Below, one piece after another: positions 7,527 to 37,047 of a DNA stretch of 40,345 nucleotides. Each line of letters begins with the position of its first letter. The first letter of the stretch is position 1. The notes beneath the pieces are model-generated. The model was not told the origin of the DNA and ran no database searches. It saw only the letters and a list, made by a program, of their open reading frames with translations. This DNA comes from an uncultured Paraprevotella sp. (GTDB lineage Bacteria; Bacteroidota; Bacteroidia; Bacteroidales; Bacteroidaceae). Position numbers and translations under genes: made by a program. The stretch covers positions 1 through 40,345 of the forward strand of contig CAMWUI010000026.1 of assembly GCA_947177395.1 (NCBI GenBank). Reading direction: 5' to 3'.

Positions 7527-7556
7527 AATCTTGCATTTAATTAATAATTGAAAGCG

Positions 7557-7588
7557 CAAAGATATGGAAAATATTTGAGAAAAAGAAA
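7557..7588 (-). promoter_or_regulatory. Promoter of slyD-aroC
   Basis: On the minus strand, TTTC (7585-7588), 20 bases, then TATCTTTG (7557-7564) fits the Bacteroides promoter pattern, 30 bases upstream of the slyD ATG. Confidence 0.6.
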
Positions 7589-7663
7589 GATACGGAGAAA
7601 GCAAAAAATGAATGGCTTTGAAATGATAAAGAAAATACCTACTAAAACAAGATTTCATATAAA

Positions 7664-7702
7664 AGCGACAGAGAATTCAATTTATTTACTATCACTGTCG
7701 CT
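7664..7702 (-). terminator. Likely terminator of the DGR operon
   Basis: Arms AGCGACAG (7664-7671) and CTGTCGCT (7695-7702) form an 8-bp perfect stem with a 23-base loop. Read on the minus strand the stem runs into TTTTATAT. It lies about 80 bases beyond the template repeat, so the template RNA would end here. Confidence 0.5.
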
Positions 7703-7757
7703 CGTGGAGACCCCGTCCCTCGTTTTTACCTTATATACTAAGGTCAGATAATGGTCT

Positions 7758-7786
7758 GTTTAATTCGGAAATCCATCCGTCCTAAG
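7758..7786. repeat. Template-side flank, inverted relative to the variable-repeat flank
   Basis: The 29 bases next to the template repeat, when reverse-complemented, align with 9435-9461 at about 25 positions, with two mismatches and two one-base gaps. The core CTTAGGnCGGATG is present in both. The same flank therefore exists on both sides of the DGR but in opposite orientation relative to the repeats. Confidence 0.7.
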
Positions 7787-7920
7787 CTAAGGAAGAACAA
7801 CCACCCGGAAGCCGTTATTGTTGTTCCGGTTGCCTGGGCTATTGTTGTTCCGATTCGAGACGCGGCAATTGCGCGCATTGTTGTTCCAGCTACCACCACG
7901 CAGCACACGATACGAACCTG
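7787..7920 (-). repeat. DGR template repeat (TR)
   Basis: This 134-bp copy of the end of the target gene aligns without gaps to 9461-9594. Eleven positions differ. At ten of them the coding strand of TR has A: 7816, 7818, 7821, 7831, 7846, 7849, 7854, 7855, 7884 and 7911. The variable repeat has six T, one C and three G there. The eleventh, at 7889, is a synonymous C/T difference. TR is rich in AAC/AAT: in the target frame it encodes 13 asparagines, including the run GNRNNNNGF. Adenine-directed change is the hallmark of a diversity-generating retroelement, where TR RNA is copied with errors at adenines and the cDNA replaces the variable repeat. TR begins nine bases after the reverse transcriptase stop. 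Confidence 0.97.
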
Positions 7921-7929
7921 TAACGACCA

Positions 7930-8934
7930 TCAACTGTTTCTTTTACATAACTCTGTACGTAACCCTTTGGTATATGCTTTTTGAGCAAAAGCCAACAATG
8001 GGATTATATGTTCTTTATATTCCATATCCGTCCATTCACCAATCGCATACATTCTTTCATATTCGGACATTTTCTTCTTTAAACGAATTTTACTTCTTCT
8101 GTTCAACAAAATCTTATGAGGAAACAAAGAGTAGCCAAGAAATGAAACACCAGAATACGTTGAACAGAACACAGGCTGTTTTAACTTCAGACGCAATTCA
8201 TTTTCAACAAACAGATTAATTCTAAATACATATTCCCGTACCTGTGATGAAGTCGATCCAAAAAGCAAGATATCATCCATATATCGAATATAACAAGGAA
8301 TCCTCACGACTTCTTTCGAATAATGATCCAAATACGAAAGATAAAAATTAGCGAAATATTGACTGGTTAGATTACCTATCGGAATTCCAAAACCGGAGGT
8401 TGTTTCATATGAATCTATAATACGGTCAAATAGAGCGAGTAACTTCATATCCTTAAATATCCTCCGCAGTTTTTGCTTCAAAATATCGTGCGATATAGAG
8501 TCAAAATAAGCTTTCATATCTAATTTCGCCACAAATCCATATTGACGCATCGCAATTTTGGCCCGGTCTATCGCTGCATATATACCTTTACCCAAACGGG
8601 TTGCGTATGTATCGTAAATCAAATGACGCTCAAAATAAGGGTGACATATATTTATAATCGCATGATGCATGATCCGCTCTTCAAATACAGCTGCACATAT
8701 TTTACGGAATTTAGGATCATAAATATTGAAATAACGATAACGGCCAATCTTAATATTCATGGATTGCAATTGCGCACGAAGTCTAACGATATTCTCAAAT
8801 AAATTCATAGAGTATTCAACAACATACGGTAATTGTTGTTTTCCTCTTTTCGCTTTATAATATGCCAGCAATAGATTGTCGATAGCGCAGATTCTATCCA
8901 TCAGATTCCCCACTCGTTTCATTATATCGCTCAC
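7930..8934 (-). CDS. DGR reverse transcriptase
   Basis: The 334-residue protein is a group-II-intron-like reverse transcriptase of the DGR clade. Visible blocks are [12 protein letters not shown] (catalytic Asp near 139), [13 protein letters not shown] (IGNLTSQ at 186-192, the DGR form [LIV]GxxxSQ in place of the retroviral QG motif) and [11 protein letters not shown] (catalytic YMDD at 218-221), followed by a thumb region. There is no endonuclease or maturase domain, as expected for DGRs. Its start overlaps the end of the HRDC gene by about 40 bases; an ATG at 8920-8922 would also serve. TR lies directly after its stop. It should copy TR RNA with misincorporation at adenines. Confidence 0.95.
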
Positions 8935-9358
8935 ATATAAGATTTCCGTATTTGGCCATCCGTTTTTCCCCTATTCCCGTAATCCGAGCAAGTAACGTAG
9001 CATCAATACTCGACAACTGTGCAATCTGAGCCAACTCTGCATCTGTAAATACAGCATACGCTGGAACAGCGTCATCATCAGCCAGTTGTTTACGAATTAC
9101 TCTTAATTTAGTAAATTTTGCAAATGCGGTTTCATCCAATACTGTTTTATAATCCACTTTTTCACGTCGTTCCTGAATGCTAAACGAAGATTGTATCGGC
9201 AAATATGTTACAAGCAACGACCAATGCCCCATATTACCAGAAGACAAATAAAACTGCCGGTCAACATCAAGAACTTTATGTCCCCGCAGAAATTTATTCA
9301 CCTGCTCAATGGCTTCCTCTGAACAGATTGCAGGAATATCAAATATTTTTATATTCAT
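8894..9358 (-). CDS. HRDC-domain DGR accessory protein
   Basis: The 154-residue protein has an N-terminal region unlike anything I recognise (FYLSSGNMGHWSLLVTYL, about residues 37-54) and a C-terminal HRDC-like domain (about 80-150: VIRKQLADDDAVPAYAVFTD, then SIDATLLARITGIGEKRMAKYG). HRDC domains are small helical nucleic-acid-binding modules known from RecQ and RNase D. HRDC proteins are a described class of DGR accessory proteins, found where the usual Avd protein is missing, and no Avd-like gene is seen here. It lies between the target and the reverse transcriptase, overlapping the latter. It probably binds TR RNA or assists priming or homing; that is inference from position and fold. Confidence 0.85.
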   Translation of the reverse strand: MNIKIFDIPAICSEEAIEQVNKFLRGHKVLDVDRQFYLSSGNMGHWSLLVTYLPIQSSFSIQERREKVDYKTVLDETAFAKFTKLRVIRKQLADDDAVPAYAVFTDAELAQIAQLSSIDATLLARITGIGEKRMAKYGNLICERYNETSGESDG

Positions 9359-9388
9359 TATACTTACGTTTTGAATTTACTCATTATC

Positions 9389-9411
9389 GCAGGTCTTTTT
9401 CATTGACCTGC
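9389..9411. other. Hairpin downstream of the variable repeat
   Basis: GCAGGTC (9389-9395) and GACCTGC (9405-9411) form a perfect 7-bp stem with a 9-base loop, about 50 bases past the 3' end of VR on the coding strand. Hairpins close to the 3' end of VR help target recognition in the Bordetella phage DGR, so the same role is possible. No T-run follows on the minus strand, which argues against a terminator. Confidence 0.5.
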
Positions 9412-9434
9412 TCACATTCGCAAATTCAGGTTAG

Positions 9435-9460
9435 CTTAGGCCGGATGATTCCCGAATAAA
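9435..9460. repeat. Variable-repeat flank, inverted copy of the template flank
   Basis: This is the partner of 7758-7786, directly next to VR and reversed relative to it. It is bounded by short CTTAG and CTAAG inverted sequences (9435-9439 and 9461-9465). Confidence 0.65.
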
Positions 9461-9594
9461 CTAAGGAAGAACAACCACCCGGAAGCCGTAAGTGCTGTTC
9501 CGGTAGCCTGGGCTATTGTAGTACCGAAACGAGACGCGGCAATTGCGCGCATTGTTGCTCCAACTACCACCACGCAGCACACGACACGAACCTG
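9461..9594 (-). repeat. DGR variable repeat (VR)
   Basis: VR covers the last 134 bp of the target gene including its stop. Against TR, nine codons change the protein: eight of 13 template asparagines become Ser, Phe, Tyr, Tyr, Tyr, Ser, Thr and Tyr, and one Tyr becomes Cys. Both adenines of one AAT codon changed to give TTT. Codons without adenine are unchanged, and the final 27 bases (GGCTTC to the stop) are identical, as expected for the 3' initiation region of homing. Confidence 0.97.
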
Positions 9595-10729
9595 ACGAAG
9601 GCCCCGCCGGATTATTCGTATCGTTCACATTATAATCCCCATACCAATCCGAACACCATTCCCATACATTTCCGGACATATCATACGTCCCCAACCCGTT
9701 TGCCCTTTTATTTTTAACCGGATGTGTTTCCCCACCGCTGTTACCATCATACCAGGCAACCGCATCGATAGACCAGCTACCACTATATTTGGTCCCGTCA
9801 CCTTTCTTCCCGCCACGTGCCGCATATTCCCATTGTGCTTCGGTCGGCAAACAATAGGTTCGGCCAGTCATACGGGTCAACTCCTGACAAAAAGCCTGTG
9901 CCTCTTCCCAACTGACGTAATACATCGGATAATCAGGACCAATTCCTCGGAGCGTTGAAGCCCCAGCTTTGCTTGCCTGTTGCTGAACCGAAGTTCCCAT
10001 TATTCTCGCCCACTGAGCCTGTGTAACCTCACACTCTCCGATATAATAGGAATCAAGTTTAACACGACGAATTACCTGTTCATCACTCTCCCCATCAGAT
10101 CCTTGTTCGGAGGTTGCCCCCATCAGAAAATCCCCCCCTTCGACATAAACCATCTTCATACCAAGGTCGGCTGTTGTTTCTACAAAATCCTGACCGGAAG
10201 AAAATTGACCGGTGTAATTGTTCGACAGAGTGATGGTTTTGCCACGCACCCTACCCAATAAACGAGCTGCTAACTCCCGGCATGCATTCTCTACCGCATC
10301 AATATCTGTCGCAGTCTGGATATCGGATGTTTTCTCCAATTTAGCAGACTCAACATTCAGAATTTTGCTCACAATGATTACATGACTATTATCAAATTTC
10401 GCTACCTCGGCGACAAGAATATAATCCGCACCGGTCATCTCGCCCAATTTTTTGATTTGAGCATCACTGACCAAACCGGTCCGCTGAAATTCCTGTTCGC
10501 CTATAATCGATGACAAATCCACGCGGTCATAACCCTCATATCCGGGTGTATTGGTAATGGCATACGCCAACTTGCTGCGCACCATCAGTTTTACAGCGTA
10601 CGGGATTACATTTTCCTTATCCACAGTTTCAAGGATAGCAACTTTTTTAGTTTGCCTCTCTTGTCCGGACATCGGACTAATAAAGGCCAATGCAACAAAT
10701 ATTAGATACAGCCTCATTTTCATAAGCAT
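9461..10729 (-). CDS. DGR target: secreted CsgG-like/FGE-sulfatase (C-type lectin fold) protein
   Basis: The 422-residue protein has a signal peptide (about 1-22, ending MSGQ). Residues about 27-165 resemble the CsgG/LpoB fold: VAILETVDKE at the start and GADYILVAEVAKF in the middle. Residues about 185-422 are a formylglycine-generating-enzyme/SUMF1 domain with GGDFLMG, LPTEAQWEYAARGG and GTYDMSGNVWEWCSDWYG. FGE domains of DGR targets use the C-type lectin fold to display a variable ligand-binding surface. VR encodes residues from about 379 to the end. I infer a binding protein, not an enzyme. It is the last structural gene of a minus-strand operon of envelope-type proteins, 53 bases after the CsgG-like gene. 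The N-terminus has three close ATGs; the first is given. Confidence 0.9.
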   Translation of the reverse strand: MLMKMRLYLIFVALAFISPMSGQERQTKKVAILETVDKENVIPYAVKLMVRSKLAYAITNTPGYEGYDRVDLSSIIGEQEFQRTGLVSDAQIKKLGEMTGADYILVAEVAKFDNSHVIIVSKILNVESAKLEKTSDIQTATDIDAVENACRELAARLLGRVRGKTITLSNNYTGQFSSGQDFVETTADLGMKMVYVEGGDFLMGATSEQGSDGESDEQVIRRVKLDSYYIGECEVTQAQWARIMGTSVQQQASKAGASTLRGIGPDYPMYYVSWEEAQAFCQELTRMTGRTYCLPTEAQWEYAARGGKKGDGTKYSGSWSIDAVAWYDGNSGGETHPVKNKRANGLGTYDMSGNVWEWCSDWYGDYNVNDTNNPAGPSSGSCRVLRGGSWSNNARNCRVSFRYYNSPGYRNSTYGFRVVVLP

Positions 10730-10782
10730 ATTTTTAAATTCGATTCTTAATAAACTGATTCACGATTGTAACTGTCATTCTC

Positions 10783-11628
10783 TTATTTAATCATTTTTTG
10801 TTCTTTGAGACTAACTCCATACATAGCCGCGCCCAAGTAGTTCCAACGATAAATTTGTAATTCAAAAAAGTTATATTTGTTCAGATCCACTTTTATAGCA
10901 AACTGTCCGCCTATTACTAATTTGTGCACCCCATTTCCAGGATTAGGTATCCGAATGGTAAAACCAGTACTCAATGTGCCTGAACCGACCATTTCCCTGT
11001 CAAATTTAACAATTAAAGGCAAATCCTTCTGTTTGTCTTTTTTCGGTTGATATCCGGGCGGCAAATAAAAAACGACCTCATTATTTTGGGGCACCGGTTT
11101 AACATCTGCATCTTCCCTTGTGCCCGCAGAAGCTGCTATTACGACTGATTCTTCATTGCTATTTGCCGATGCGTCAACAAGGGACAGGGTAAGAGGTTCA
11201 ATGACATCAAGCAATTCTCCCGACGCGACCACCTTGACCTTTTGCCGTTCAACACTTGCCGTTTTGACATCTATCATTTTCACACTAAGCATATTGCGCC
11301 CGCCAGTTAATGTCACGACTGAAAGCACAACCTTGTTTGCACCGGCAAGCTTACCGATTTCTGTCGCGTCATTATCATCAACTGCACCAGAATGAGAAAA
11401 AGATTGTTCCTGCATTACTTTTTCAAGCAGAGAACGCTCAACAATATCATAATTACCCGCATTAACAATAGTTGAACTAATAATCTCACGAATAGCCACT
11501 TTCGTACCTTCATCAATAGAAGTCCCGCTTGAAGTAGGGTCAAAAACTGCAACACGCAATTTGGTGTTGTCAGCCAATGCAGGAAAGCATATCCATGCAA
11601 CCAATATCATAATACAAAATCGTCTCAT
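10783..11628 (-). CDS. CsgG/FlgO-like secreted protein
   Basis: The 281-residue protein has a signal peptide ending at PALAD (about residue 20). Residues about 23-145 match the CsgG/FlgO/LpoB-type domain: LRVAVFDPTSS, YDIVERSLLEKVMQEQSFSHSG and IGKLAGANKVVLSVV. The C-terminal part (about 180-281) is a beta-rich domain unknown to me that begins after a proline- and lysine-rich linker. There is no lipobox, so it is not a classical CsgG lipoprotein. Its ATG overlaps the stop of the upstream gene in an ATGA junction, which indicates translational coupling. It shares the CsgG-like fold with the N-terminus of the DGR target, so the two may assemble together; this is inference. Confidence 0.75.
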   Translation of the reverse strand: MRRFCIMILVAWICFPALADNTKLRVAVFDPTSSGTSIDEGTKVAIREIISSTIVNAGNYDIVERSLLEKVMQEQSFSHSGAVDDNDATEIGKLAGANKVVLSVVTLTGGRNMLSVKMIDVKTASVERQKVKVVASGELLDVIEPLTLSLVDASANSNEESVVIAASAGTREDADVKPVPQNNEVVFYLPPGYQPKKDKQKDLPLIVKFDREMVGSGTLSTGFTIRIPNPGNGVHKLVIGGQFAIKVDLNKYNFFELQIYRWNYLGAAMYGVSLKEQKMIK

Positions 11629-12656
11629 TGCTTAATATTGTTTTTTATGATTTCACCTATCTTCTGTTTTATTTCTTTATAACCAGCCTTGGCGGCTTCC
11701 GAATAACCGAACGTATGCCCGCCTTTAACCGAGATCTCATCTTCATAAATCCGCTGCGAAGTAATTACCTTGTTAATTACGATCTGTGCATCGACATACG
11801 AAAAATAAGAGCTTGTTTTTCCAATATTTACATTCGAATGTTCCCTAGCTTCGCATGTAATTGTAATTACCCAGTCTGCATCTGCCGGATTCTCGGTAAA
11901 GCTACATCCACCTGTAGCCAGAATGCCTTTCAGTTCATTTTGTAATGTCGGATATGGCTTCCCGAAAATATCCGCAGTACACGACAGGCAAATAACCGTT
12001 GCGTGTTTCAGGTCGGCAAGCATTCTTTTAATGCCTTGTTCCGCCATATTGAAACGTTCCTGCCATTCGGCCAGTTCCGATTGCGAAGCCCCGAAGATAT
12101 TCATCCAAAACAGCGGTTTGTCTATCAAAGCAAAATGTTTCAACGATGCTTTCAGTTCGGTTTGAGCCTTCGTCTTGAAACCCGCAGACACAAAATTTTC
12201 GGCCAATGCAATCGAATTATTAATCTTGTTATAAACCAGTGTCAACTCATTCTTGTAATAGTTACGCGCCACCTCCTTGTCAATATAGGCTATGACATAG
12301 CCCATTTTGGATATTGAATTGTAGGTAGCCCTTGTTTCAACCAGTTTCAGATTCACATCCGTAGAAAAATTGGTGCTGGACGAATAAGTTACAGAAGTCC
12401 GACCGTTTATTGACTGCTTGTTCAATTCAGCCACATCCTGCACACGGACTTGAATCTGTTTGGCAAGATTCGTACGCGCAATGTTCAATAGATAATTTTT
12501 AAAATCTGTCTCCGACAAATTTCTATCATTGCTGTCACTTTGAATATCATACAGGTATCCGCTATAAGTGTACTTAACCCACTCCGACGGATATTGTTGT
12601 GCCTTAACTCCCCAAGAGCCCCAAAGCAAAAAGAAGAAAAAACAGATTTGTTTCAT
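11625..12656 (-). CDS. Secreted LPP20-like protein of the DGR operon
   Basis: The 343-residue protein has a signal peptide ending at GVKAQ (about residue 19). Residues about 25-130 look like an LPP20-type domain (YLLNIARTNLAKQIQVRVQ, then GYVIAYIDKEVARNYYKNEL). A helical middle (about 130-215) follows, then a C-terminal domain from about 225 with TVICLSCTADIFGKPYPTL and WVITITCEARE that recalls the FlgT/LpoB-like folds of envelope proteins. I do not know a named family for the whole protein. It sits 22 bases after the lipoprotein gene and overlaps the CsgG-like gene by four bases, so it belongs to the same operon. Confidence 0.6.
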   Translation of the reverse strand: MKQICFFFFLLWGSWGVKAQQYPSEWVKYTYSGYLYDIQSDSNDRNLSETDFKNYLLNIARTNLAKQIQVRVQDVAELNKQSINGRTSVTYSSSTNFSTDVNLKLVETRATYNSISKMGYVIAYIDKEVARNYYKNELTLVYNKINNSIALAENFVSAGFKTKAQTELKASLKHFALIDKPLFWMNIFGASQSELAEWQERFNMAEQGIKRMLADLKHATVICLSCTADIFGKPYPTLQNELKGILATGGCSFTENPADADWVITITCEAREHSNVNIGKTSSYFSYVDAQIVINKVITSQRIYEDEISVKGGHTFGYSEAAKAGYKEIKQKIGEIIKNNIKQ

Positions 12657-12678
12657 CTTTGCAGTGTTTTACAATGAA

Positions 12679-13314
12679 TTAGTTTCCCCTGGCAGCCTCC
12701 ATAATAGACTTGTTTGTCTGAATAAACTGATTCAAATCTTCACCTGTCAAATCGGAAGGTTTAAAATTTCCAGCCGTGTTGAGCAATTGATTGAAACGGT
12801 CTCCCCGAACACCTATCTTGGATGTAACCTCATACATCCTTGTATTCGGATTATAATTGATTGTAGTATTACCAAACGGTTCGCATGCTTTCTCCACACT
12901 TGCGCTTACCTGTTTCCAATGAGAAGTAAGAGCCTGTTGCACCCGACCGTTGTTGGCTACATTTCCGCGTTCCGCCTGATCCAGCACGGCATTGTTTAAC
13001 ACACGGGATAATGTAGCATAGGCTTCTCGCTGTGCCAGTTCAATAGCAACCTGTTTATTGTCTGCCTTGCCTATGCCGGCAAACCACTTATAAGGACGCT
13101 TAATCATATCCGTTCCGTCATCGTTAAGCGCCTCCGCCATTTCGATGCCTGTAAGTTTAACGGTTTCAGATGTAACTTTTTCTCCTTCAAGACTGGTTAT
13201 CACTGCTCTTGAAGTTTCAACTGCTGGAACCATAGCAACCTTTTTAGATGTTCCACACGATGCCATCATTATGGCAAGCAAACTTGTAAACCCAACGTTT
13301 AAATTCATCTTCAT
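12679..13314 (-). CDS. LPP20-like lipoprotein, first gene of the DGR operon
   Basis: Read from the ATG at 13312-13314 the product has 211 residues and a clear lipoprotein signal: a hydrophobic stretch ending LLAIMMASCG with the acylated cysteine at residue 20. The middle (about 75-150: WFAGIGKADNKQVAIELAQ, AYATLSRVLNN) matches LPP20-type domains, in which alternating alanines mark long helices packed on a sheet. The frame is open 26 codons further upstream, but that stretch runs through the left inverted repeat and would destroy the signal peptide, so it is not used. As the first gene after the invertible segment, its expression should depend on the orientation of that segment. Confidence 0.75.
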   Translation of the reverse strand: MKMNLNVGFTSLLAIMMASCGTSKKVAMVPAVETSRAVITSLEGEKVTSETVKLTGIEMAEALNDDGTDMIKRPYKWFAGIGKADNKQVAIELAQREAYATLSRVLNNAVLDQAERGNVANNGRVQQALTSHWKQVSASVEKACEPFGNTTINYNPNTRMYEVTSKIGVRGDRFNQLLNTAGNFKPSDLTGEDLNQFIQTNKSIMEAARGN

Positions 13315-13389
13315 TTTATACAATTTTATTTCTCTGTTTATACACTCTCTCCATAAGAGAGAATCACAGTATTCTATCTTATTATAATT

Positions 13390-13397
13390 CAAACATA
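13390..13397 (-). promoter_or_regulatory. Candidate -7 box facing the DGR operon
   Basis: The minus strand reads TATGTTTG, a full TAnnTTTG match, inside the invertible segment and pointing at the lipoprotein gene 76 bases away. The nearest -33-like ATTG is only 17 bases upstream, so the match is incomplete. Confidence 0.4.
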
Positions 13398-13512
13398 TAA
13401 CAGTTATTTACAAGCAATTTTACTAAACAAAAATAGGTTATTTGAAACATTATAATGCCACATCTTTATAAAATTATATCCTGATTTTACGTATCAATAG
13501 CAATATTTTGTT

Positions 13513-13520
13513 TAAATTTG
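13513..13520 (+). promoter_or_regulatory. Candidate -7 box facing away from the DGR operon
   Basis: The plus strand reads TAAATTTG inside the invertible segment. It now points at the 3' end of the recombinase gene; after inversion it would point into the operon. No good -33 box is visible at 19-21 bases. Confidence 0.35.
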
Positions 13521-13578
13521 CAAATGATTTATTCTCTCTTATGGAGAGGCACTTCAATTTGCTAAACACATCCGCTCG

Positions 13579-14811
13579 TCATAAACCTTTTAGAATTAAT
13601 CTGTTTGCACGATCGACAATTGTAGTGTCAAGCGAAGCAAGATAGATTTGAGTCGTAGTTTCCGAATCATGTCCTAAACCATCTGAAATAATTGAAATTG
13701 GAATATTTTTAGACTTAGCCACACTTGCCCATGAGTGCCGTGCGACATACATCGTAAGCGGAACATCAAGTTTAGCAAGTTTTGCTATCGTCTTCAATGC
13801 CTTGTTAATTTGCTGCAATACGCATCGATACATACTTTTTCTATTATTATCGAATGGCGGTTTGAGTATCGGCAACAAAAAAGGATTGCCATTAGGTATA
13901 TGACGATAGGTATTCTCATTTTCATACTTGGCAATTATCTCCTGCATGCATCTTTCCCATTTGATTGACAATAGTTGTCCCGTCTTGCGTCGACGATATG
14001 TTATGACCCCATTTTTCAAATCTGTCTTTTTCAGATAAGCCATATCAACAAACGACATTCCGCGTGTATAAAATGAAAACAGAAACATATCCCTGGAAAA
14101 ATCAAGTGCAGGAGATAATAACAAATCGAGTTCTTTGATTCGCTTGATTGCCGCAAATGATATTGCCCGTTTCACAGTCTTGTCTACTCCTGTATATACA
14201 TGTTTGAATGGATTGCGCCGTTCAGTCAGTTCCTGTTCAACAGCCCGATTGTAAACTGCCCGCAAAATGCGCATATAAAAAGAAATGGTGTTTTTTGCAA
14301 CACACCGCCCAACCAAATAAGCTTCGTATCGCATCATCAAATCTGAATCAAGTTCACTCAACAGCAAATCTTCATTATCCCGAAACCGGATAAAACTGTT
14401 CAATGCCGTGATATAATTTTCGGCTGTGCGATATCTGTTCAAGACTTTCAGTTGAATGATAACACCCTGCATGAAATTAAAAAAAGACAGATCCTGCGAC
14501 TGATTTGTAAAAGCCGATATGATATCATCAGCAGTATATGATCGAACAGTCTTATCAAATCGCTCTATAATTAAATTCAGCCGCTTCACATCCCAATCAA
14601 TTCGTTCCTGAATTGAACGCAAGAGAAGCATTCGCCTGTTTCCTGTATTTGTCGTTACAATCATTCTCAGAACATCATTCCGCTCCTCATCGAATATTTT
14701 ATAATCCGTTTTCAATTGACGAACAACACGGTTATGAATAATCTGATAGTAAATCGTTCCGGCTTTGCCATCAATGGCCGAAGGCCTCCATTTTATTTTT
14801 ACCGTTGCCAT
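13579..14811 (-). CDS. Tyrosine recombinase (phage integrase family)
   Basis: The 410-residue protein has an N-terminal arm/SAM-like DNA-binding part (about 1-215) and a catalytic domain. Catalytic residues can be placed: Arg in FYTRGMSFVDMAYL, Lys in YRRRKTGQLLSIKW, Arg-His in MYVARHSWASVAK, and the Tyr nucleophile in TTTQIYLASLD. The first histidine of the usual HxxR is Tyr here (YVAR), a variation I believe is common in Bacteroidales integrases. It lies beside the 18-bp inverted repeats, which suggests a local inversion role. An alternative is that it is the integrase of an element carrying the whole DGR cassette; no flanking direct repeats were found by eye. Confidence 0.9.
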   Translation of the reverse strand: MATVKIKWRPSAIDGKAGTIYYQIIHNRVVRQLKTDYKIFDEERNDVLRMIVTTNTGNRRMLLLRSIQERIDWDVKRLNLIIERFDKTVRSYTADDIISAFTNQSQDLSFFNFMQGVIIQLKVLNRYRTAENYITALNSFIRFRDNEDLLLSELDSDLMMRYEAYLVGRCVAKNTISFYMRILRAVYNRAVEQELTERRNPFKHVYTGVDKTVKRAISFAAIKRIKELDLLLSPALDFSRDMFLFSFYTRGMSFVDMAYLKKTDLKNGVITYRRRKTGQLLSIKWERCMQEIIAKYENENTYRHIPNGNPFLLPILKPPFDNNRKSMYRCVLQQINKALKTIAKLAKLDVPLTMYVARHSWASVAKSKNIPISIISDGLGHDSETTTQIYLASLDTTIVDRANRLILKGL

Positions 14812-15159
14812 AAAAACCTTTCATTTAAATTATTCTTTATATATTATATGTAACCATCAAATGAACATTATCGGATCATTCTCCGGTCAAATGTATCATG
14901 CGCTCTCCTGAGGAAGTAATGGATATAACGAAAAATTCTGGGATTCCAATAGAAACAGCATTCAAGACGCGAGCGGTCATACTTAACAAATCGCACTTTT
15001 AGGCTTTTGTTAGATGTAAATTTTAAAAGGATGTGCGCAATTTAGATTGGATTTATCACCTCGGCCGCAGTTTTTATCTTTTAATATTTTGTCTGATATG
15101 AAAAAAGAGACTACCTTTGTAGCCTTATTAACAGAAAGACTAAAAAACATACAATAAAG
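14812..15159. other. Intergenic region between the recombinase and ilvD
   Basis: These 348 bases hold the divergent starts of the recombinase (minus) and ilvD (plus). Only the ilvD promoter at 15088-15119 is clear. A near match to a -7 box for the recombinase (TTCATTTG on the minus strand, 14859-14866) is weak. No gene or tRNA is seen. Confidence 0.5.
15088..15119 (+). promoter_or_regulatory. Promoter of the ilv operon
   Basis: TTTG (15088-15091), 20 bases, then TACCTTTG (15112-15119) is a full match to the Bacteroides promoter consensus, 41 bases before the ilvD ATG. The leader is too short for a T-box or an attenuation peptide system. Confidence 0.8.
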
Positions 15160-26820: not shown

Positions 26821-29800
26821 ATGTCTTTTTGGAATAAAATCATAGAATCAATCAGCGGTGAGGAGAATCGATTTTCATTGCAGAAACAGAAGGAAACATC
26901 TCGCGATACCTCCCGCTATGCAATTGTGGATATCGAAGTTAGCATAAAAGATAAAAAGATTCATGATATTGGTGCTTGGAGAAGAGATGGAGCTACGTTT
27001 CATTCCGCAAACAAACAGGCATTAATAGAGTTCCTGAAAGATGTGGATTATATCTGTGGACACAATATTATACACCATGATGCAAAGTATCTGTTCGGTG
27101 AAGTATCACATCGATGGATTTTGATTGATACGTTGTATGTCTCGCCATTGCTTTTCCCGGATAAACCTTACCATCGTTTGCTTAAAGATGACAAACTTTT
27201 GAGTGAACAGATGAATAACCCTGTCAATGACTGTAGAAAGGCTTGTGAGTTGCTGATGGATGAGGTCGCTCGTTGGGAGACATTATCAGATGCAAAGAAA
27301 AAAATTTATGCTACATTATTATATGATGTGCCTGAGTTTGCAGGATTTCTAGACTTCGTCAAGGCTAAAACCTGTAATAAGATACAGTTCATAGAATTAA
27401 TTCGCACTGAATATATCGGAAAAATCTGCGAGCATACTGATGTTACAGATATCATGACTCAGCAACCTGTCGAACTTGCATACGCTCTTGCCTTAATAGA
27501 CACAACAGATTATCGCTCCATAACGCCTGCCTGGGTGTTACACAACTACCCGAACGTAGAGAACGTGGTAAGACTTCTGCGTCATACAAGATGTGAAGAA
27601 GGTTGCGAATATTGCAACAAAAAACTGGATCTTCATTACAATCTCAAGCAAACCTTTGGCTATAACCACTTCCGAACCTATGAAGGTGAGCCCTTGCAAG
27701 AGAATGCTGTAAGGGCAGCTATAGAAGGAAAGTCTTTGTTGGCTATCTTCCCAACTGGTGGAGGAAAATCCTTAACCTTCCAGTTACCAGCTTTGATGGA
27801 AGGACGTTCAGTGCATGGTCTCACAGTGATTATCTCGCCTCTGCAATCATTAATGAAGGATCAGGTGGATAATCTTGCCGAGAGAGGTATTACAGATGCC
27901 GTCACCATCAACGGATTGCTTGACCCTATCAGTCGTGCGTCAGCCATTCAGCGTGTGCAGGATGGTGATGCGTCTCTGTTGTATATCGCTCCAGAAATGC
28001 TTCGTTCAAAAACGACAGAAAAGATTCTTCTGGCACGTCATGTGGTTCGTTTTGTGATTGACGAAGCACATTGTTTCTCTTCCTGGGGACAAGATTTCCG
28101 TGTAGATTACCTCTACATTGGTAAGTTCATCAGCGAATATCAAAAAAAGAAACGATGTAAAAAAACAATACCCGTTTCTTGTTTTACTGCTACAGCCAAG
28201 CAGAAAGTAGTGCAAGATATTTGTGATTACTTCAAGCAGTCGCTCAATCTCGATCTTCAACTTTTCGCTTCTACTGCCTCACGTACCAACCTACGTTACT
28301 CTGTCATCCATGCCGATACTGATGAGGAAAAGTACATAAAACTACGCTCGCTGATAGCAGAATCTTCTTGTCCCACAATCGTATACGTCTCAAGAACCAA
28401 ACGTACGAATCTATTGGCAGAAAAACTATCGCGCGATGGATACAAAGCCCTGCCATTCAACGGGCAGATGGATGCAGAACAGAAAATAACCAATCAGAAT
28501 GACTTCATGACGGATCGGGTTAACATCATAGTCGCAACTTCAGCCTTCGGCATGGGTGTGGATAAAAAGGACGTGGGGTTGGTTGTACACTATGACATTT
28601 CCGATTCGTTAGAGAACTATGTGCAGGAGGCTGGACGGGCAGGGCGTGATCCACATCTTGAGGCACGCTGCTTTGTATTGTACAGTGATGCTGACCTCGA
28701 CAAACATTTCATTCTGCTCAATCAGACAAAATTGAGCATCAGTGAGATTCAACAGGTGTGGAAGGCTGTGAAGGAAATGACCAGACAGCGTATGCACACA
28801 TGTTGCTCGGCATTGGAAATAGCGCGAAAGGCCGGTTGGGACGATTCGGTATCGGATATTGAAACAAGAGTGAGGACTGCGTTGGCAGCACTTGAACAAG
28901 CAGGCTATCTTGAGCGTGGAAATAACGTTCCTCATGTCTATGCTACAGGTATTACTGTAAAGGATATGGATGAAGCCAAAAAGCGAATCACAGAGTCGCT
29001 ACTTTTTGAAAACGAGGAAACAGAAAAGGCTGTCCGCATCATCAAATCCCTGATATCACAAAAGCATATTGCCAAGGCACAGGATGCAGAAGCTGAGTCG
29101 CGCGTGGATTATCTGGCAGACATTCTCGGTTTGAATAAGAGAGAGGTGGTGTCGGCTGTTGAACGAATGCGTCAAGAAGGTATATTGGCAGATACGAAAG
29201 ATATTTCGGCCTATCTAAATGATGAGGGAGAATCGGAAAACAAGTCAAATCGACTATTGGATCGATTTGCAAAACTAGAACGTTACATTCTAAATATAAT
29301 TCCAGATGACGCACTTAGAATATCTTACAAGCAACTGAATGATAATGCTCAGAATAGAGGTATTACAACTGCCACGGAAAAAGACATTCGTACTCTACTC
29401 TATTTCCTTACGATAAAAGGATATACCCGCAAAAAGGAAGATGCTGCACATAATCTGGAGATGGTACGCCAGGCTGATATGCAAACAACACTAAAACGTT
29501 TTGAGAAACGTCTGGAAATCTGCCGCTTTTCCGTAGAATGGCTATACAAACTAACATCTCAAACACCAACTGAAGAATCACAGAAAAGAAGTGTACAGTT
29601 CTCGGTAGTAGAATTGTTGAATGACATAAAATCCCAATGCCAGGACCTTTTCAGTACACCTCAAGAAATTCTGTTGGAGGATGTAGAAGAGGCTTTGCTT
29701 TATCTCTCAAAAATTGGCGCTTTAAAACTCGAAGGAGGTTTCCTTGTACTGTATAATGCCATGAATATTCGTCGCATCAAAGATAACAGGTTGCGCTACA

Positions 29801-31701
29801 AACAGGATGACTACCGCATGCTGAACGAATTCTACAAACAAAAGATTCAGCAGGTGCATATCGTAGGCGAATATGCAAACCTAATGGTAAGGGACTACGA
29901 TTCGGCATTGCAGTATGTGCAGGATTATTTCCAAATGGATTACAAACATTTCGTATCAAAGTATTTCAAAGGGAATCGCATACGAGAAATTGAACGTAAC
30001 GTAACGCCCCAAAAATACGAGCAACTGTTTGGTGCACTTTCGAACAAACAGATGGAAATTATCTCTGATAAAGAATCTCGTTGCATAGTTGTGGCAGCAG
30101 GCCCGGGTAGCGGAAAGACACGTGTGTTGGTACATAAACTTGCATCGTTGCTGTTGTTAGAAGATGTAAAACATGAGCAATTGCTAATGCTCACTTTCTC
30201 ACGTGCTGCTGCCATTGAATTCAAACAACGACTGATGGAACTTATCGGAAATGCCGCTCATTTCGTTGAGATAAAGACATTTCATTCCTATTGTTTTGAC
30301 CTATTGGGAAGAATTGGAAATCTTGACGATGCCAAAGACGTAGTGGCTTGTGCTGCAAAAATGATTAATAATGGCGAGGTGGAGCCCAACCGTATAGCTA
30401 AGACTGTTCTGGTAATAGACGAAGCACAGGACATGAGTACAGAGGAATACGAATTGGTACATGCTCTAATGAGAGCCAATGAAGAGATGCGTGTGATAGC
30501 AGTGGGCGATGATGACCAAAACATTTTTGAGTTCCGTGGTTCTACTTCCAAGTACATGACTCAGTTACTAAATGACTCAGGTGGGCGATTCATTGAGATG
30601 ACAGAGAACTATCGTAGCTCTCGGCATGTGGTAAATTTCGCCAATGCTTTTGTACAAAAGATCCGTCACAGAATGAAAAGCACACCAATAGTATCAATGA
30701 GTAACGAAAAGGGATTCGTTGGCATAACGCAACATTCGTCTATTTACATGTATGCCCCCCTTGTTCGTGAACTTATCGCCCATCATACTCAAAACTCCAC
30801 ATGTGTGCTTACCCAAACGAACGCGGAGGCTATCATTATAGTGGCTCTATTAAGAAAGTATGGTTTGCAAAGCAAACTGATTCAAAGTATGGACGGTTTC
30901 CGATTCTGGAATATGGCAGAAGTTCGTATGTTTTTAAAATATATAGATGCCAAGACTCACACTCCCATCATTACAGATGAAGTATGGAAAGAAGCAAAGC
31001 ATAAGACATTTGCTAAATACTCAACTTCAGAAAGCCTCCATTATCTCCAGCGGTGCATACAGTTGTTTGAACAGACCAACAAAACGAAATACCTCACAGA
31101 CTTCAAGGAATTTGTTTTCGAATCGTCCGTAGAAGATTTCTGCAATCTTTCGGGAACTGATATTGTGGTATCAACCATACATAAATCCAAAGGTAGAGAG
31201 TTTGACGATGTCTACATGCTACTTACAGAACCACAACATTTTTCAGACGATGTATTTCGTCGATATTTTGTAGGTATTACTCGTGCCAAACAACGGTTAT
31301 TTATACATACCAACAGTTCTATATACGACAAATTACCAACAGACAAGAAAACCATCGACCAAAATCTATACGAAATGCCCGACGAGGTTGTTCTTCAACT
31401 CTCTCACAAAGACGTTAATCTCGGTTTTTTCAAAACTCAAAAGAAGGAGATTCTTGCACTAAGGGCAGGCGAACACCTTCGTTTTGACACCAACTATCTA
31501 TATTCCGAAAAAACAAATATCCCGGTATGCCAATTCTCTCATAAGATGCAAACAGAACTTTGTTCATGGAAAAAACAGAATTACCATGTCACTAACGCAA
31601 CCATACGATTCATCGTTGCATGGCGCCCCAAAAATACTTCTAAAGAAGAAAAAGAATATGCTGTATTACTTGCTGATTTAAAATTAAACAAGAACAAATA
31701 G
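26821..31701 (+). CDS. Exonuclease-RecQ-UvrD triple fusion helicase
   Basis: The 1626-residue protein joins three DNA-processing modules. Residues about 30-190 resemble a DnaQ-type 3'-5' exonuclease (YAIVDIEVS with Asp/Glu near 36-39, and CGHNIIHHDAKYL). Residues about 285-760 are a RecQ-like superfamily 2 helicase: Walker A PTGGGKS at 311-317, VIDEAHCFSSWGQDFR near 412, and QEAGRAGRD near 602. Residues about 1070-1530 are a UvrD/Rep-like superfamily 1 helicase: AAGPGSGKTR near 1094, VIDEAQDM near 1198, VGDDDQNIFEFRG near 1229 and STIHKSKGREFDDV near 1452. The middle (about 780-1050) is helical and may hold winged-helix folds. All motifs look intact. It leads a cluster of nuclease-type genes, so a defence role is likely; DNA repair is the alternative. 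Confidence 0.85.
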   Translation: MSFWNKIIESISGEENRFSLQKQKETSRDTSRYAIVDIEVSIKDKKIHDIGAWRRDGATFHSANKQALIEFLKDVDYICGHNIIHHDAKYLFGEVSHRWILIDTLYVSPLLFPDKPYHRLLKDDKLLSEQMNNPVNDCRKACELLMDEVARWETLSDAKKKIYATLLYDVPEFAGFLDFVKAKTCNKIQFIELIRTEYIGKICEHTDVTDIMTQQPVELAYALALIDTTDYRSITPAWVLHNYPNVENVVRLLRHTRCEEGCEYCNKKLDLHYNLKQTFGYNHFRTYEGEPLQENAVRAAIEGKSLLAIFPTGGGKSLTFQLPALMEGRSVHGLTVIISPLQSLMKDQVDNLAERGITDAVTINGLLDPISRASAIQRVQDGDASLLYIAPEMLRSKTTEKILLARHVVRFVIDEAHCFSSWGQDFRVDYLYIGKFISEYQKKKRCKKTIPVSCFTATAKQKVVQDICDYFKQSLNLDLQLFASTASRTNLRYSVIHADTDEEKYIKLRSLIAESSCPTIVYVSRTKRTNLLAEKLSRDGYKALPFNGQMDAEQKITNQNDFMTDRVNIIVATSAFGMGVDKKDVGLVVHYDISDSLENYVQEAGRAGRDPHLEARCFVLYSDADLDKHFILLNQTKLSISEIQQVWKAVKEMTRQRMHTCCSALEIARKAGWDDSVSDIETRVRTALAALEQAGYLERGNNVPHVYATGITVKDMDEAKKRITESLLFENEETEKAVRIIKSLISQKHIAKAQDAEAESRVDYLADILGLNKREVVSAVERMRQEGILADTKDISAYLNDEGESENKSNRLLDRFAKLERYILNIIPDDALRISYKQLNDNAQNRGITTATEKDIRTLLYFLTIKGYTRKKEDAAHNLEMVRQADMQTTLKRFEKRLEICRFSVEWLYKLTSQTPTEESQKRSVQFSVVELLNDIKSQCQDLFSTPQEILLEDVEEALLYLSKIGALKLEGGFLVLYNAMNIRRIKDNRLRYKQDDYRMLNEFYKQKIQQVHIVGEYANLMVRDYDSALQYVQDYFQMDYKHFVSKYFKGNRIREIERNVTPQKYEQLFGALSNKQMEIISDKESRCIVVAAGPGSGKTRVLVHKLASLLLLEDVKHEQLLMLTFSRAAAIEFKQRLMELIGNAAHFVEIKTFHSYCFDLLGRIGNLDDAKDVVACAAKMINNGEVEPNRIAKTVLVIDEAQDMSTEEYELVHALMRANEEMRVIAVGDDDQNIFEFRGSTSKYMTQLLNDSGGRFIEMTENYRSSRHVVNFANAFVQKIRHRMKSTPIVSMSNEKGFVGITQHSSIYMYAPLVRELIAHHTQNSTCVLTQTNAEAIIIVALLRKYGLQSKLIQSMDGFRFWNMAEVRMFLKYIDAKTHTPIITDEVWKEAKHKTFAKYSTSESLHYLQRCIQLFEQTNKTKYLTDFKEFVFESSVEDFCNLSGTDIVVSTIHKSKGREFDDVYMLLTEPQHFSDDVFRRYFVGITRAKQRLFIHTNSSIYDKLPTDKKTIDQNLYEMPDEVVLQLSHKDVNLGFFKTQKKEILALRAGEHLRFDTNYLYSEKTNIPVCQFSHKMQTELCSWKKQNYHVTNATIRFIVAWRPKNTSKEEKEYAVLLADLKLNKNK

Positions 31702-31933
31702 GAGAACTCATAAATCTCTGAACTTAATTTCGAAACAATAAACAACGACATATCCGACATAATAAATTTATAACCTAAAACAAATTCTATGATAGGAAGA
31801 AAGCAAGAAACAAAACGATTCTCCACAAAAACACAGAATGTAATAGCGCAAGAACACCGAACCACACAACACAAGAACAAGGGTTAAAACACCACAAAAA
31901 CACCGAATGCCCTGGTAAGTTCAAGAAAAACAC

Positions 31934-31941
31934 TACCTTTG
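31934..31941 (+). promoter_or_regulatory. Candidate -7 box for the EVE-GmrSD genes
   Basis: TACCTTTG fully matches TAnnTTTG, 22 bases before the ATG at 31964. No good -33 box is visible. The 262-bp gap before it also holds short repeated ACAAAAACAC[AC]GAATG segments (about 31827 and 31895). Confidence 0.5.
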
Positions 31942-31963
31942 CACTCGCAAATATTAAAAAGAT

Positions 31964-32353
31964 ATGACACAAAATCGTACATGGCTTGCCTTTGCCAATA
32001 GAAAAAGGTGTAGACATGCTGATGCAATTCATAATATAGGATTTGTCAGTTGGAGAATGGGAAGAGCACGTTTCGCCATTGGTGATGTTGTGTACCTATT
32101 TATGTCCGATGAACGATGTGTGCGTTTCAAGATGGTGGTAACTGCAGAAAACTGCAAACGTGAAGATCAGGCATATTGGGTGGAAACGCCTCCAAATGAT
32201 ATTACTTACAAGCTTGAACTACTCGAAGAATATGATGGTGCAAAACTTTCTGAGCAAGAGTTGTGCAAACATGGTTTCAAAGGAGGTAGATCGCTTGAGG
32301 TTCCTAATTGCAATAATACAGAACTTATTGCTTACATTAAAACTATATTCTAA
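31964..32353 (+). CDS. EVE/PUA-like domain protein
   Basis: The 129-residue protein looks like a stand-alone EVE-type domain of the PUA superfamily: RTWLAFANRKR at the N-terminus, then MGRARFAIGDVVYLFMSDERCVRFKMVVTAEN with the GD-hYLFhS-like strand, then aromatic residues YWVET. EVE/PUA-like modules bind modified bases in DNA or RNA and are common next to type IV restriction enzymes. The next gene, two bases after its stop, is a GmrSD-type nuclease that in known cases cuts modified DNA, so this protein is likely the reader. The family call rests on pattern and context. Confidence 0.6.
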   Translation: MTQNRTWLAFANRKRCRHADAIHNIGFVSWRMGRARFAIGDVVYLFMSDERCVRFKMVVTAENCKREDQAYWVETPPNDITYKLELLEEYDGAKLSEQELCKHGFKGGRSLEVPNCNNTELIAYIKTIF

Positions 32354-32355
32354 CG

Positions 32356-34437
32356 ATGAAAGGTGACGCTCAACCACTTATAAAGTTCTTTGATGGATCT
32401 GATAAGCGATTCATCATTCCTCTTTACCAGCGTAACTACGACTGGAAGGAAGAGAACTGTGAACAGTTGTTTCAGGACTTGATGAAACTGCATAACAGCG
32501 ACCGCAGAAGTCACTTCTTTGGTAGTATTGTGTCCAGCATCCAGTCAGGAACAGAAGACAGATTCATTATTGATGGACAGCAGCGAATTACTACAGTTTC
32601 GTTGCTATTAATTGCGATGGTAAATGCCAAGAAAGAAGGATTGATAGAAGCAACTGACGCTAAACTTGTAGAGAAAATCTTTAAGCGTTATCTGGTGGAT
32701 GAATACCAAGAAGACGAACGAAAAGTGAAACTGAAACCTATCAAGAAAGATATGCAGGCTTTTGATGCTTTGCTGTATAAGCCTAAAGAGCAGTACATCA
32801 AGGAGTCGAATGTTACTCGCAACTACGACTTCTTCTATGATAAGATTATTCATTGCAGATTGACCATTGATGAACTCTTTGAGACCATCAAGAAATTGGA
32901 AGTCATCAATATCCGTCTTGACGAAGATGATGACCCGCAGCTAATTTTTGAGAGCCTGAACTCTACTGGCCTTGATTTGAGTGAGGCTGACAAGATACGT
33001 AACTATCTGTTGATGTCGTTAGCACCTGCAGAGCAGGATGACCTATATACTCGATTCTGGAATCCTATAGAGGAGTTTACAAAGTATGATCCATCTTCTT
33101 TCGTACGCGATTACCTGACCATGAAGCAAGGAAAGATAGGTCGTATCGATAAAATTTACTTTATCTTTAAAGAGTATGCCGAAAATATAAGTGTGGATAG
33201 GGCAACGCTATTGGAAGACATGCATCACTATGCCAAGATATATAGCCAAGTGGACAGGGCAACGGTAGGTACCGACAAGCTGAACAGGAAGCTGAACCAA
33301 CTGCGTACTTTGGATTTCACCATTGCTTACCCATTCTTTATGGCTTTCTTCGACTATGCATCGAAAGTTGGATTAGCGGAAAACGAGATTTATCATGTAC
33401 TTGACGTGATAGAAGCTTACTGGGCACGCAGAATCATCTGCAATCTTCCTTCTAATGCCCTGAATAAGGTATTTGCAACGCTCCATAGAGATGTATTGAA
33501 TCACGTCAACAAAGCTGCCGATGATGTAACACCTTCATACATTGATGTACTGACTTACGTCTTATTGAAGAAGGGACGTTCTTCTGTCTTCCCATCTGAT
33601 GAAGAGGTAAGGGGTGATTTTAAAACTCGTCAGGTTTACAAGATGCCATCCAATGCCCGTATGTTTATCTTGGAACGCATGGAGAACCAAGATAATAATG
33701 AACGGCATGATGTGGTGAAGGAACTGACAGAAAAGAATATCACCATAGAACATATTATGCCACAAACTCTGTCGGATAAGTGGAAAGCTGTTTTAGGCGA
33801 AGATTGGGAAAGAATTCATGAACAATATCTGCACACTATGGCAAATATTACACTCACAGGCTACAATTCTCAATATAGCAATCTTACGTTTATTGAGAAG
33901 AGAGACATGGAGAAGGGCTTTAAGGATAGTGCATTCCGTCTGAATAACTCTGTGAAATCATGTAACCAATGGACAGAAACAGAGTTGAAAACACGGCAGA
34001 AAGAATTGCAGAATGTGTTTATGCGGCTCTGGCCTATGCCAACTACAACTTTTGAACCGCTGAGACGTGAAGCAGAATCTGCATCGCTTGATGATGAAGA
34101 CTATGAGTTCATAGGCAAGAAGCTGCAAGCATATATGCTTCATGGGGTTAGATATTCTGTTAACACTTGGAAGGAAATGCTCATTCAGGTTTGTGGACAC
34201 ATCCTGCTGGAGAAGCGTTCTACCATAGAATGGCTTTGTGCAAACGAAAAGTGCTGTTTCTCAACCACTCCAGAAGAATGGAAACGTGAACTTGCACCAG
34301 GGATGTATGTATGGACAAACAATAGTACTGCCACCAAGATTAATATTCTTCATGGAATGTTTAAGGAATGCAATATTCCCGCCTCCGAACTCGTTTTTGA
34401 ATTCCGTTCTGATCAAGAGGGAGAAGATGAGGAGTAA
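32356..34437 (+). CDS. GmrSD-type DUF262/DUF1524 nuclease
   Basis: The 693-residue protein has an N-terminal DUF262 (ParB/Srx-like) domain with FIIPLYQRNYDW near residue 17 and FIIDGQQRITTVSLLL near 70-85; DGQQR is its nucleotide-binding signature. A helical middle leads to a DUF1524 His-Me-finger nuclease: NITIEHIMPQTLSDKW (His near 465), then MANITLTGYNSQYSNL with the Asn residues. Residues about 580-690 are an extra C-terminal domain unknown to me. GmrSD enzymes are type IV restriction systems against glucosylated hydroxymethylcytosine DNA. It is coupled to the upstream EVE-like gene and followed 15 bases later by a TOPRIM-like gene. Key residues are intact. Confidence 0.88.
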   Translation: MKGDAQPLIKFFDGSDKRFIIPLYQRNYDWKEENCEQLFQDLMKLHNSDRRSHFFGSIVSSIQSGTEDRFIIDGQQRITTVSLLLIAMVNAKKEGLIEATDAKLVEKIFKRYLVDEYQEDERKVKLKPIKKDMQAFDALLYKPKEQYIKESNVTRNYDFFYDKIIHCRLTIDELFETIKKLEVINIRLDEDDDPQLIFESLNSTGLDLSEADKIRNYLLMSLAPAEQDDLYTRFWNPIEEFTKYDPSSFVRDYLTMKQGKIGRIDKIYFIFKEYAENISVDRATLLEDMHHYAKIYSQVDRATVGTDKLNRKLNQLRTLDFTIAYPFFMAFFDYASKVGLAENEIYHVLDVIEAYWARRIICNLPSNALNKVFATLHRDVLNHVNKAADDVTPSYIDVLTYVLLKKGRSSVFPSDEEVRGDFKTRQVYKMPSNARMFILERMENQDNNERHDVVKELTEKNITIEHIMPQTLSDKWKAVLGEDWERIHEQYLHTMANITLTGYNSQYSNLTFIEKRDMEKGFKDSAFRLNNSVKSCNQWTETELKTRQKELQNVFMRLWPMPTTTFEPLRREAESASLDDEDYEFIGKKLQAYMLHGVRYSVNTWKEMLIQVCGHILLEKRSTIEWLCANEKCCFSTTPEEWKRELAPGMYVWTNNSTATKINILHGMFKECNIPASELVFEFRSDQEGEDEE

Positions 34438-34452
34438 TCAATTTACAAGAGT

Positions 34453-35268
34453 ATGGTTAATATTCAAGATATAAACAACATTCCAGAACTCCAATCTCCT
34501 TTCGAGCAGTTGAAAGAGGTTGATGCCGACGGTAGGGAATGGGGAACTCGCGCCATCTTTGCCCCTCAGCCAAAAGAATTGGTACAAGTCTTATCTGCAA
34601 TTGACGAAAGATTGTCTGATTTGGATTTGATGCGAGATATACTACTCACTAACGAGACTTCCCGTTCTGCGCAAGCATCAGCTACGGGTAATTCAAAACT
34701 CATAGCCGTCCGATCATGTCCAGGCTTCCCCGTCAATACATACGAACCGATTAGTTGCATACTGAATGGGCGTGAGCTAACGGTAAAGCCAGAAGAAGGG
34801 AGTTTCTTGTTCATAACGGACTGGCAGTCCTTTTCTATTCCCAAGGATGTCATTGTCGTTGGAATCGAAAATATGGAGAATTTCCGTAAGATCCGCCAAC
34901 AACGGGCATTGTTTGATCAAACGATAGGCATCGACCGCTTGCTGTTTGTTTCCCGTTACCCGCAATCCTCCGACCTCCGTTTCTGGTTGCAGTCTATCCC
35001 CAATCACTATATTCATTTCGGTGATTTCGATTTGGCAGGAATACATATTTTCCTTACGGAATTCCACGCATGTTTGGGAGTGCGCAGTTCATTCTTTATT
35101 CCGACAGATATAGAACGGAGGCTGGAAGCCGGTTCCATGGAAAAGTATAATGCACAATATCATAAGTTTAAGAATTTATCAACTACCATTCCTGATATTC
35201 AACATCTCATTGACACAATAAACAATCATCATAGATGTTATGATCAAGAAGGATATATAGACATTTAA
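34453..35268 (+). CDS. TOPRIM-like protein (JetD/DUF2220-type C-terminus)
   Basis: The 271-residue protein has an unassigned N-terminal half and a C-terminal half with a TOPRIM-like pattern: VVGIENMENFRKI with Glu at 139, and HFGDFDLAGIHIF with Asp at 191 and 193. This Glu plus Asp-x-Asp arrangement is that of TOPRIM nucleases and is close to the JetD (DUF2220) subunit of Wadjet systems, which cleaves plasmid DNA. Other Wadjet parts (JetABC) are absent, so the protein probably serves the local cluster. The family call is inference from the motif; the Pfam name could differ. Confidence 0.55.
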   Translation: MVNIQDINNIPELQSPFEQLKEVDADGREWGTRAIFAPQPKELVQVLSAIDERLSDLDLMRDILLTNETSRSAQASATGNSKLIAVRSCPGFPVNTYEPISCILNGRELTVKPEEGSFLFITDWQSFSIPKDVIVVGIENMENFRKIRQQRALFDQTIGIDRLLFVSRYPQSSDLRFWLQSIPNHYIHFGDFDLAGIHIFLTEFHACLGVRSSFFIPTDIERRLEAGSMEKYNAQYHKFKNLSTTIPDIQHLIDTINNHHRCYDQEGYIDI

Positions 35269-35285
35269 TATATAATAGTAATAGC

Positions 35286-35813: not shown

Positions 35814-35945
35814 TCGGTAAAATAAATGAGTGGCAATTTCCCTTCCTCGAATATAACCATATCTGATAATCAAATATTTAATATAATATGGTACAAATAT
35901 GAGATTTCAAATAACTAAGAATGATATCGTTTACTTCATCGTTTC

Positions 35946-36542: not shown

Positions 36543-36744
36543 TCTTAATTCTATTTATGGCATCGCCCCATTTCTCTTGTGCCGCTTGCGAGGCAGCCTC
36601 GATACCGGCAGCCACACGCTCGGCAGCGCGGCGGGTGCTTTCGCGGGCATCCTCGGCCACCTCGCGCATGATCTGAGCCATGCGCTCGTCGCCCGGCTCT
36701 TCCATCGACGTCAGCCGATAACTGTTCATCTGTTCTTCTGACAT
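36529..36744 (-). CDS. Small helical protein, possible antitoxin partner of the zeta toxin
   Basis: From the ATG at 36742-36744 this encodes 71 residues, with SYRLTSMEEPGDERMAQIM then an alanine- and glutamate-rich helix (EVAEDARESTRRAAERVAAG). Its end overlaps the zeta-like gene start by 14 bases, the usual toxin-antitoxin layout. It is not a classical epsilon antitoxin. It looks intact although its partner is broken. An in-frame ATG ten codons earlier lies on the -7 box and is not used. Confidence 0.6.
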   Translation of the reverse strand: MSEEQMNSYRLTSMEEPGDERMAQIMREVAEDARESTRRAAERVAAGIEAASQAAQEKWGDAINRIKNGNF

Positions 36745-36771
36745 AATCAATAATCTTTTCTTATTCAACGT

Positions 36772-37037: not shown

Positions 37038-37047
37038 CATTGTGATT

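Follow-up and report, generated by a model that had tools for sequence, protein, structure and literature searches.

The window, a 40,345-nucleotide stretch of DNA from an uncultured Paraprevotella sp., carries between its FKBP and IlvD genes a cassette containing a DGR, a surface operon that ends in the DGR target, a short inverted repeat, and a tyrosine recombinase gene:

7591..15082, no strand: entire cassette; the corresponding site of the related genome G016 does not have it; edges approximate
7783..7920, minus strand: TR, template repeat, placed by TR/VR comparison
7930..8934, minus strand: reverse transcriptase (RT) of the DGR (Pfam RVT_1)
8894..9358, minus strand: HRDC-domain protein in the DGR accessory position (Pfam HRDC, E 4.8e-12)
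9457..9594, minus strand: VR, variable repeat closing the target gene on its 3' side, with 12 mismatches to TR
9461..10729, minus strand: operon gene 4, the DGR target, with a CsgG-like N-terminus and an FGE-sulfatase domain (Pfam)
10783..11628, minus strand: operon gene 3, CsgG-like (Pfam CsgG, E 5e-8)
11625..12656, minus strand: operon gene 2, apparently secreted protein, family unknown, no Pfam match
12679..13314 (start 13314 or 13308), minus strand: operon gene 1, probable lipoprotein (lipobox by eye), no Pfam match
13347..13364, no strand: left arm of the inverted repeat, operon side, 18 bp, perfect match to the right arm
13365..13530, no strand: 166-bp segment, predicted to invert; architecture also found in 58/89 recombinase relatives
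13513..13520, plus strand: TAAATTTG box at a conserved position, putative promoter -7 element, oriented opposite to the operon (OFF)
13531..13548, no strand: right arm of the inverted repeat, recombinase side, 18 bp, perfect match to the left arm
13579..14811, minus strand: tyrosine recombinase, 410 aa (Pfam Phage_int_SAM_5 and Phage_integrase), ORF complete

Judged by its sequence, the block on the left is a genuine DGR. An RT is accompanied by a TR/VR pair that differs at 12 sites, 10 of them at template adenines (minus strand) and the other two C to T, and the VR lies at the 3' end of a target gene with an FGE-sulfatase match (E 3.4e-49) and thus a predicted lectin-like fold; the CsgG match of the same protein is weak (E 3.6e-4, just under Pfam's cut-off). 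This DGR resembles others with FGE- or C-type-lectin-like targets in its RT, accessory gene, TR, VR, and template-adenine mismatches, but differs from them in that its accessory protein has an HRDC domain and in that the whole block is preceded by a repeat that contains a promoter box and is linked to a recombinase.

The layout described by the sequence-only reading on this side of the repeat, a four-gene operon ending in the target and then the DGR, was recovered, the DGR parts being, in order, the HRDC-domain gene, RT, and TR. Between the left arm and gene 1 the distance is 32 bp for a start at 13314 and 38 bp for one at 13308. Operon and DGR share a strand, no gap in the block exceeds 102 bp, and a minus-strand TAnnTTTG occurs just once from 13346 to 7600, at 11008 within the CsgG-like gene. 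Together these features favor, without proving, a single transcript for the target, RT, and TR.

Gene 1 was found in only two of 251 family genomes, the window's own and G089, whose ortholog is 72% identical. The G089 operon has two target-like genes and a 17-bp upstream repeat, and was rejected as support: the enclosed segment is without a TAnnTTTG box, the repeat matches 28 sites of that genome at up to two mismatches (10 of them exactly), and no RT was found in G089 at E 1e-10. The two target-like genes of this operon relative (L120, G089:C67; 810-4878, 133-326, 5001-5709) differ at many 3' sites.

The 18-bp perfect inverted repeat enclosing 166 bp, which the sequence-only reading had reported, was re-found at 13347-13364 and 13531-13548. 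In 40 Markov-shuffled windows, no exact inverted repeat with a gap of 20-1200 exceeded 15 bp, and those of 15 bp averaged 0.05 per window; the window itself has two longer than that, at 13347-13548 and 1103-1384. The former is beyond chance and surrounds a short segment, as in an inverton. The latter (1103-1121 and 1366-1384; 19 bp, gap 244) precedes an AlgI-like gene at 1495 and encloses no TAnnTTTG box.

The recombinase ORF ends beside the right arm, as had been claimed, although the spacing is 30 bp rather than 31. Residues R250, K276, R358, H381, and Y390, which we take to be catalytic, are present in 99 of 99 aligned recombinase sequences, and the repeat thus has a tyrosine recombinase with conserved residues close by. 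We compared 98 relatives of this recombinase, the best 80 of 461 contig-scan matches and 18 further loci, scoring exact inverted repeats of at least 11 bp with a CTC..GAG core no more than 600 bp from the end of the match and requiring at least 300 bp of 3' DNA. Such a repeat occurs on the 3' side in 58 of 89 eligible loci, in 52 of these starting within 60 bp of the stop, and on the 5' side, used as a control, in one of 95; by these criteria the other 31 eligible loci have none. The typical arm of the family reads TCTCTnnnnAAGAGA. On these comparisons, the window repeat is a member of a widespread switch family.

Scanning the genus for the repeat pattern with a gap of 140-170, which misses the window switch, gave 38 segments in 10 of 18 genomes, and a gap of 168-198, which includes it, gave 32 matches (one site twice) in 12 of 18; the control gave 0 in each case. 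A second switch of the class is present in the window's own genome (C24:42565-42765; L297 4564-4766, G000:C24), with a box at 29 bp from the outer end. To its left lie genes that by eye look DUF3575-like and fimbrillin-like, and to its right the contig ends.

Across the family the genes behind the switch vary. From 56 segments, 53 had a downstream ORF and 51 were scanned (L043 and L064 were left out); the first downstream proteins include 14 that match ResIII, eight that match DUF3575, and some that match DNA methylases. The PADLOC HKD+Snf2 model matches 11 of these 51 proteins, many PADLOC matches being generic helicase matches. Relatives of the recombinase and repeat stand before phage-defense-like restriction or helicase genes at L047, L053, L058, L062, L071, and other loci. 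The window thus has relatives in the phase-variable restriction and defense operons of Bacteroidales, but its own cargo is a secreted, DGR-diversified protein and not a restriction system. No match to the DGR or operon proteins was detected at the 98 recombinase loci at E 1e-4.

Compared with G016, the nearest relative examined, the window carries the cassette as an insertion: the FKBP and IlvD matches are ~260 bp apart in G016 and ~7.5 kb apart in the window. DNA similarity between the two stops near 7590 and resumes near 15083; IlvD of G016 is 93% identical overall and 97.6% identical over 211 residues in the compared stretch. Among 15 ilvD-side stretches of the genus, 10 contain AroC, FKBP, and IlvD, with an FKBP-IlvD spacing below 400 bp in six, 1.9 kb in G012, ~4 kb in G003, and more than 11 kb, with other content, in G006 and G008. 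The remaining five (G010, G002, G017, G014, and G015) contain IlvD alone, and four of these are at most 6.6 kb long. Because the cassette proteins have no match at E 1e-6 in any of the 15 stretches, DGR, operon, switch, and recombinase come or go here as one block. Elsewhere in the window, 26821-40316 holds a large helicase-like ORF along with DUF262-like and transposase-like ORFs, recognized by eye, and is possibly a defense island with an insertion sequence.

The insertion, together with the membership of the recombinase in the phage integrase family, could mean that the enzyme is the integrase of a 7.5-kb island and that the repeat has another role. However, the att-like direct repeats that a mobile island would have at both edges were not found, the edge stretches 7541-7790 and 14813-15110 having no direct repeat of at least 8 bp in common (edges approximate). 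Moreover, in relatives of the recombinase the repeat occupies the same position and precedes unrelated genes, and a second DGR locus of the genus, L121 (described below), has the repeat without an adjacent recombinase. We regard an integrase role as very improbable.

The segment between the arms contains three TAnnTTTG boxes (plus 13513-13520, minus 13435-13428, and minus 13397-13390), and not one per strand as the sequence-only reading had counted. The Bacteroides-type -7 consensus is TANNTTTGY, according to the portion of PMC12632263 covered here, and the base following the plus-strand box is C, in agreement with it. This box, at 28 bp from the arm's outer end, is the only one in the window segment at the position typical of the family. 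After four of 58 segments had been dropped as near-duplicates, 43 of the 54 non-redundant ones, among which are the window and L121, have TAnnTTTG at 26-33 bp from an arm's outer end; 200 shuffles averaged 0.91 such segments and never gave more than 4. The other 11 segments have no box there. From this conserved place at one end of the segment, facing outward as the promoter of an inverton does, we infer promoter activity for the box. No clear -33 element was recognized upstream of it, and a scan for another promoter consensus type gave 25 sites versus 24.0 in shuffles.

Since its only box at the conserved position faces the 3' end of the recombinase gene, away from the operon, the window segment was probably assembled as OFF. 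Both boxes on the minus strand face the operon even as assembled, though neither is at the conserved position; OFF may therefore be leaky. Among the 43 segments with a conserved box, 36 point it away from the operon and seven toward it; a slightly wider range, applied to 60 segments, gave 42 away from the operon and toward the recombinase 3' end, eight toward the operon, and 10 with none. The excess of away-facing boxes (42 versus eight of 60) suggests either that OFF prevails in assemblies or that the two orientations are unequally stable.

Comparison of orthologous switches in related genomes, which the sequence-only reading had proposed, reveals opposite orientations. The clearest case is that of L047 and L058, which share the same downstream gene; their flanks align directly at 87.6% and 90.2% identity and the segment aligns in reverse at 75.3%, so that this switch is cleanly inverted between them. 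L088 and L105 repeat the pattern at lower identity (flanks 75.4% and 82.1%, reversed segment 68.6%). In L054/L055 and L055/L071 the segment also aligns in reverse, but mainly the recombinase-side flank is common to both members. L053/L062 is a weaker case because a direct alignment at 73.0% spans the segment as well as the reverse match at 74.3%; in another comparison the reverse score exceeds the direct one. L042 and L044 have their segments in the same orientation. The inversions were thus observed in relatives and not at the window locus, where inversion is likely.

Alternatively, the switch might be a fossil or be locked, the repeat persisting after inversion has ceased. The one-sidedness of the family, with 42 of 60 segments in the away orientation and only eight in the other, would fit this idea, which we nevertheless consider quite unlikely given that the arms in the window are perfectly matched, the recombinase ORF is complete with its conserved residues, and orthologous switches are found inverted.

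A second case of a switch before a DGR occurs in the same genus, in G013 (locus L121), where a related DGR (RT 56% identical) lies between other genes. Its 21-bp repeat, TCTCATATTAAGAGAGCAACC, has a gap of 150 and ends 48 bp before the first gene; behind it follow, in order, a CsgG-like gene, a CsgG-FGE target, HRDC, RT, and TR. Both boxes of the segment face away from the operon. Neither a recombinase nor a recombinase remnant was found in the 13.6 kb around this locus, and two relatives of the recombinase are encoded elsewhere in the G013 genome.

RT matches occur in four of 18 genomes of the genus, and at two of these four loci a switch lies upstream. The wider search gave 62 RT matches including the window, of which 58 were examined (G160, G055, and two in G513 were left out); a core-bearing repeat lies within 6 kb upstream of the RT at two of these 58, the window and L121, with at least 3 kb of upstream sequence available at 40 of them. 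A search for TR/VR pairs covered 49 of these loci and yielded one in 40 of them (that of L169 is doubtful). The 56 loci without a switch of the class include nearer DGR relatives such as L289 (RT 51% identical). As only two of 58 RT loci combine them, the coupling of switch and DGR is rare and so far limited to one genus.

Other candidates were rejected. The G012 switch (C65:66045-66222) is on the same contig as an RT but on its downstream side, before an OmpA/vWA-like operon; this RT (L245 11416-19732, G012:C65) adjoins a 2293-aa phage-tail-fiber-like protein, and stands close to a switch of the class without lying behind it. In L294 and L296 a short repeat sits downstream of the RT, and the repeats upstream of the RT in L166, L174, and L194 have neither core nor box. 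Viral contigs yielded three exact arm matches and no relative of the RT.

That so many RT loci are without a switch implies that these DGRs do not need one, and the switch could govern the surface operon alone, with the RT and template RNA transcribed from their own promoter and mutagenesis not phase-variable. The 102-bp gap between the target and the HRDC-domain gene could indeed hold a promoter of another type. We consider such an arrangement unlikely, however, as all parts lie on one strand with small gaps, no minus-strand TAnnTTTG occurs between 9461 and 7600, and L121 has the same order directly behind its own repeat.

We therefore favor the reading, to which we assign a probability of roughly three in four, that the element at 13347-13548 acts as an invertible promoter under the adjacent recombinase, assembled OFF, and that in the inverted state it would drive the operon and probably the HRDC-domain gene, RT, and TR. 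The recombinase encoded beside the element would carry out the inversion. The promoter would be the plus-strand TAAATTTG box, which as assembled would fire into the recombinase gene from its 3' side and leave the operon OFF; after inversion it would aim leftward into gene 1, gene 2, the CsgG-like gene, and the DGR target. Transcription would probably run on through the closely spaced HRDC-domain gene, RT, and TR on the same strand, a co-transcription that we infer from the layout, and display and mutagenic homing would then switch together. Control of the operon by the switch is likely at the window locus, and control of mutagenesis is plausible. The earlier suggestion that the DGR and its target are phase-variable is partly supported, by the switch family, the recombinase, the box at its fixed place, the genuine DGR, the inversions in relatives, and the repeat before a second DGR of the genus; its box count had to be revised, and it did not mention that the assembled orientation is probably OFF.

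The locus resembles known Bacteroidales invertons with an adjacent tyrosine recombinase in its perfect inverted repeat, in the Bacteroides-type box inside it, and in the recombinase beside the repeat, oriented so that the promoter cannot drive it. It differs from them in that the genes behind the switch include a DGR and its target. Related work includes that of Weinacht (2004) on B. fragilis surface proteins, cited in PMC12632263. Promoter and recombinase arrangements of this kind are described for a tyrosine-type DNA invertase in the part of PMC11892184 covered, in which the word retroelement does not occur. In the portion of PMC6642488 covered, inversion occurs once, about cassette orientation, and the terms inversion, invertible, and phase variation are all absent from PMC8144416. 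Judged by titles and the openings of abstracts, the literature searched, which also includes parts of PMC12135933, PMC8987985, and PMC8042965, has no description of a DGR behind an invertible promoter. Switch and DGR are each of a known kind; their combination, in which a promoter switch linked to a recombinase stands before a mutagenic cassette, is a variant that is new as far as searched.

More tentatively, one invertible promoter may gate the whole set of target, accessory gene, RT, and template RNA. Hypermutation would then occur only in cells that display the target, and OFF cells would serve as an unchanged, silent archive; the OFF promoter, running antisense to the recombinase gene, could slow flipping back and stabilize this archive. 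We think this extension possible, though somewhat less probable than its opposite.

If the switch does precede a DGR in this way, a population could keep silent, unmutated copies while a minority explores variants, and the limits that a host sets on the cost of self-mutagenesis would become directly testable at such a switch. The comparisons also show that one portable class of Bacteroidales switch stands ahead of genes as different as those for restriction, those for surface proteins, and a DGR.
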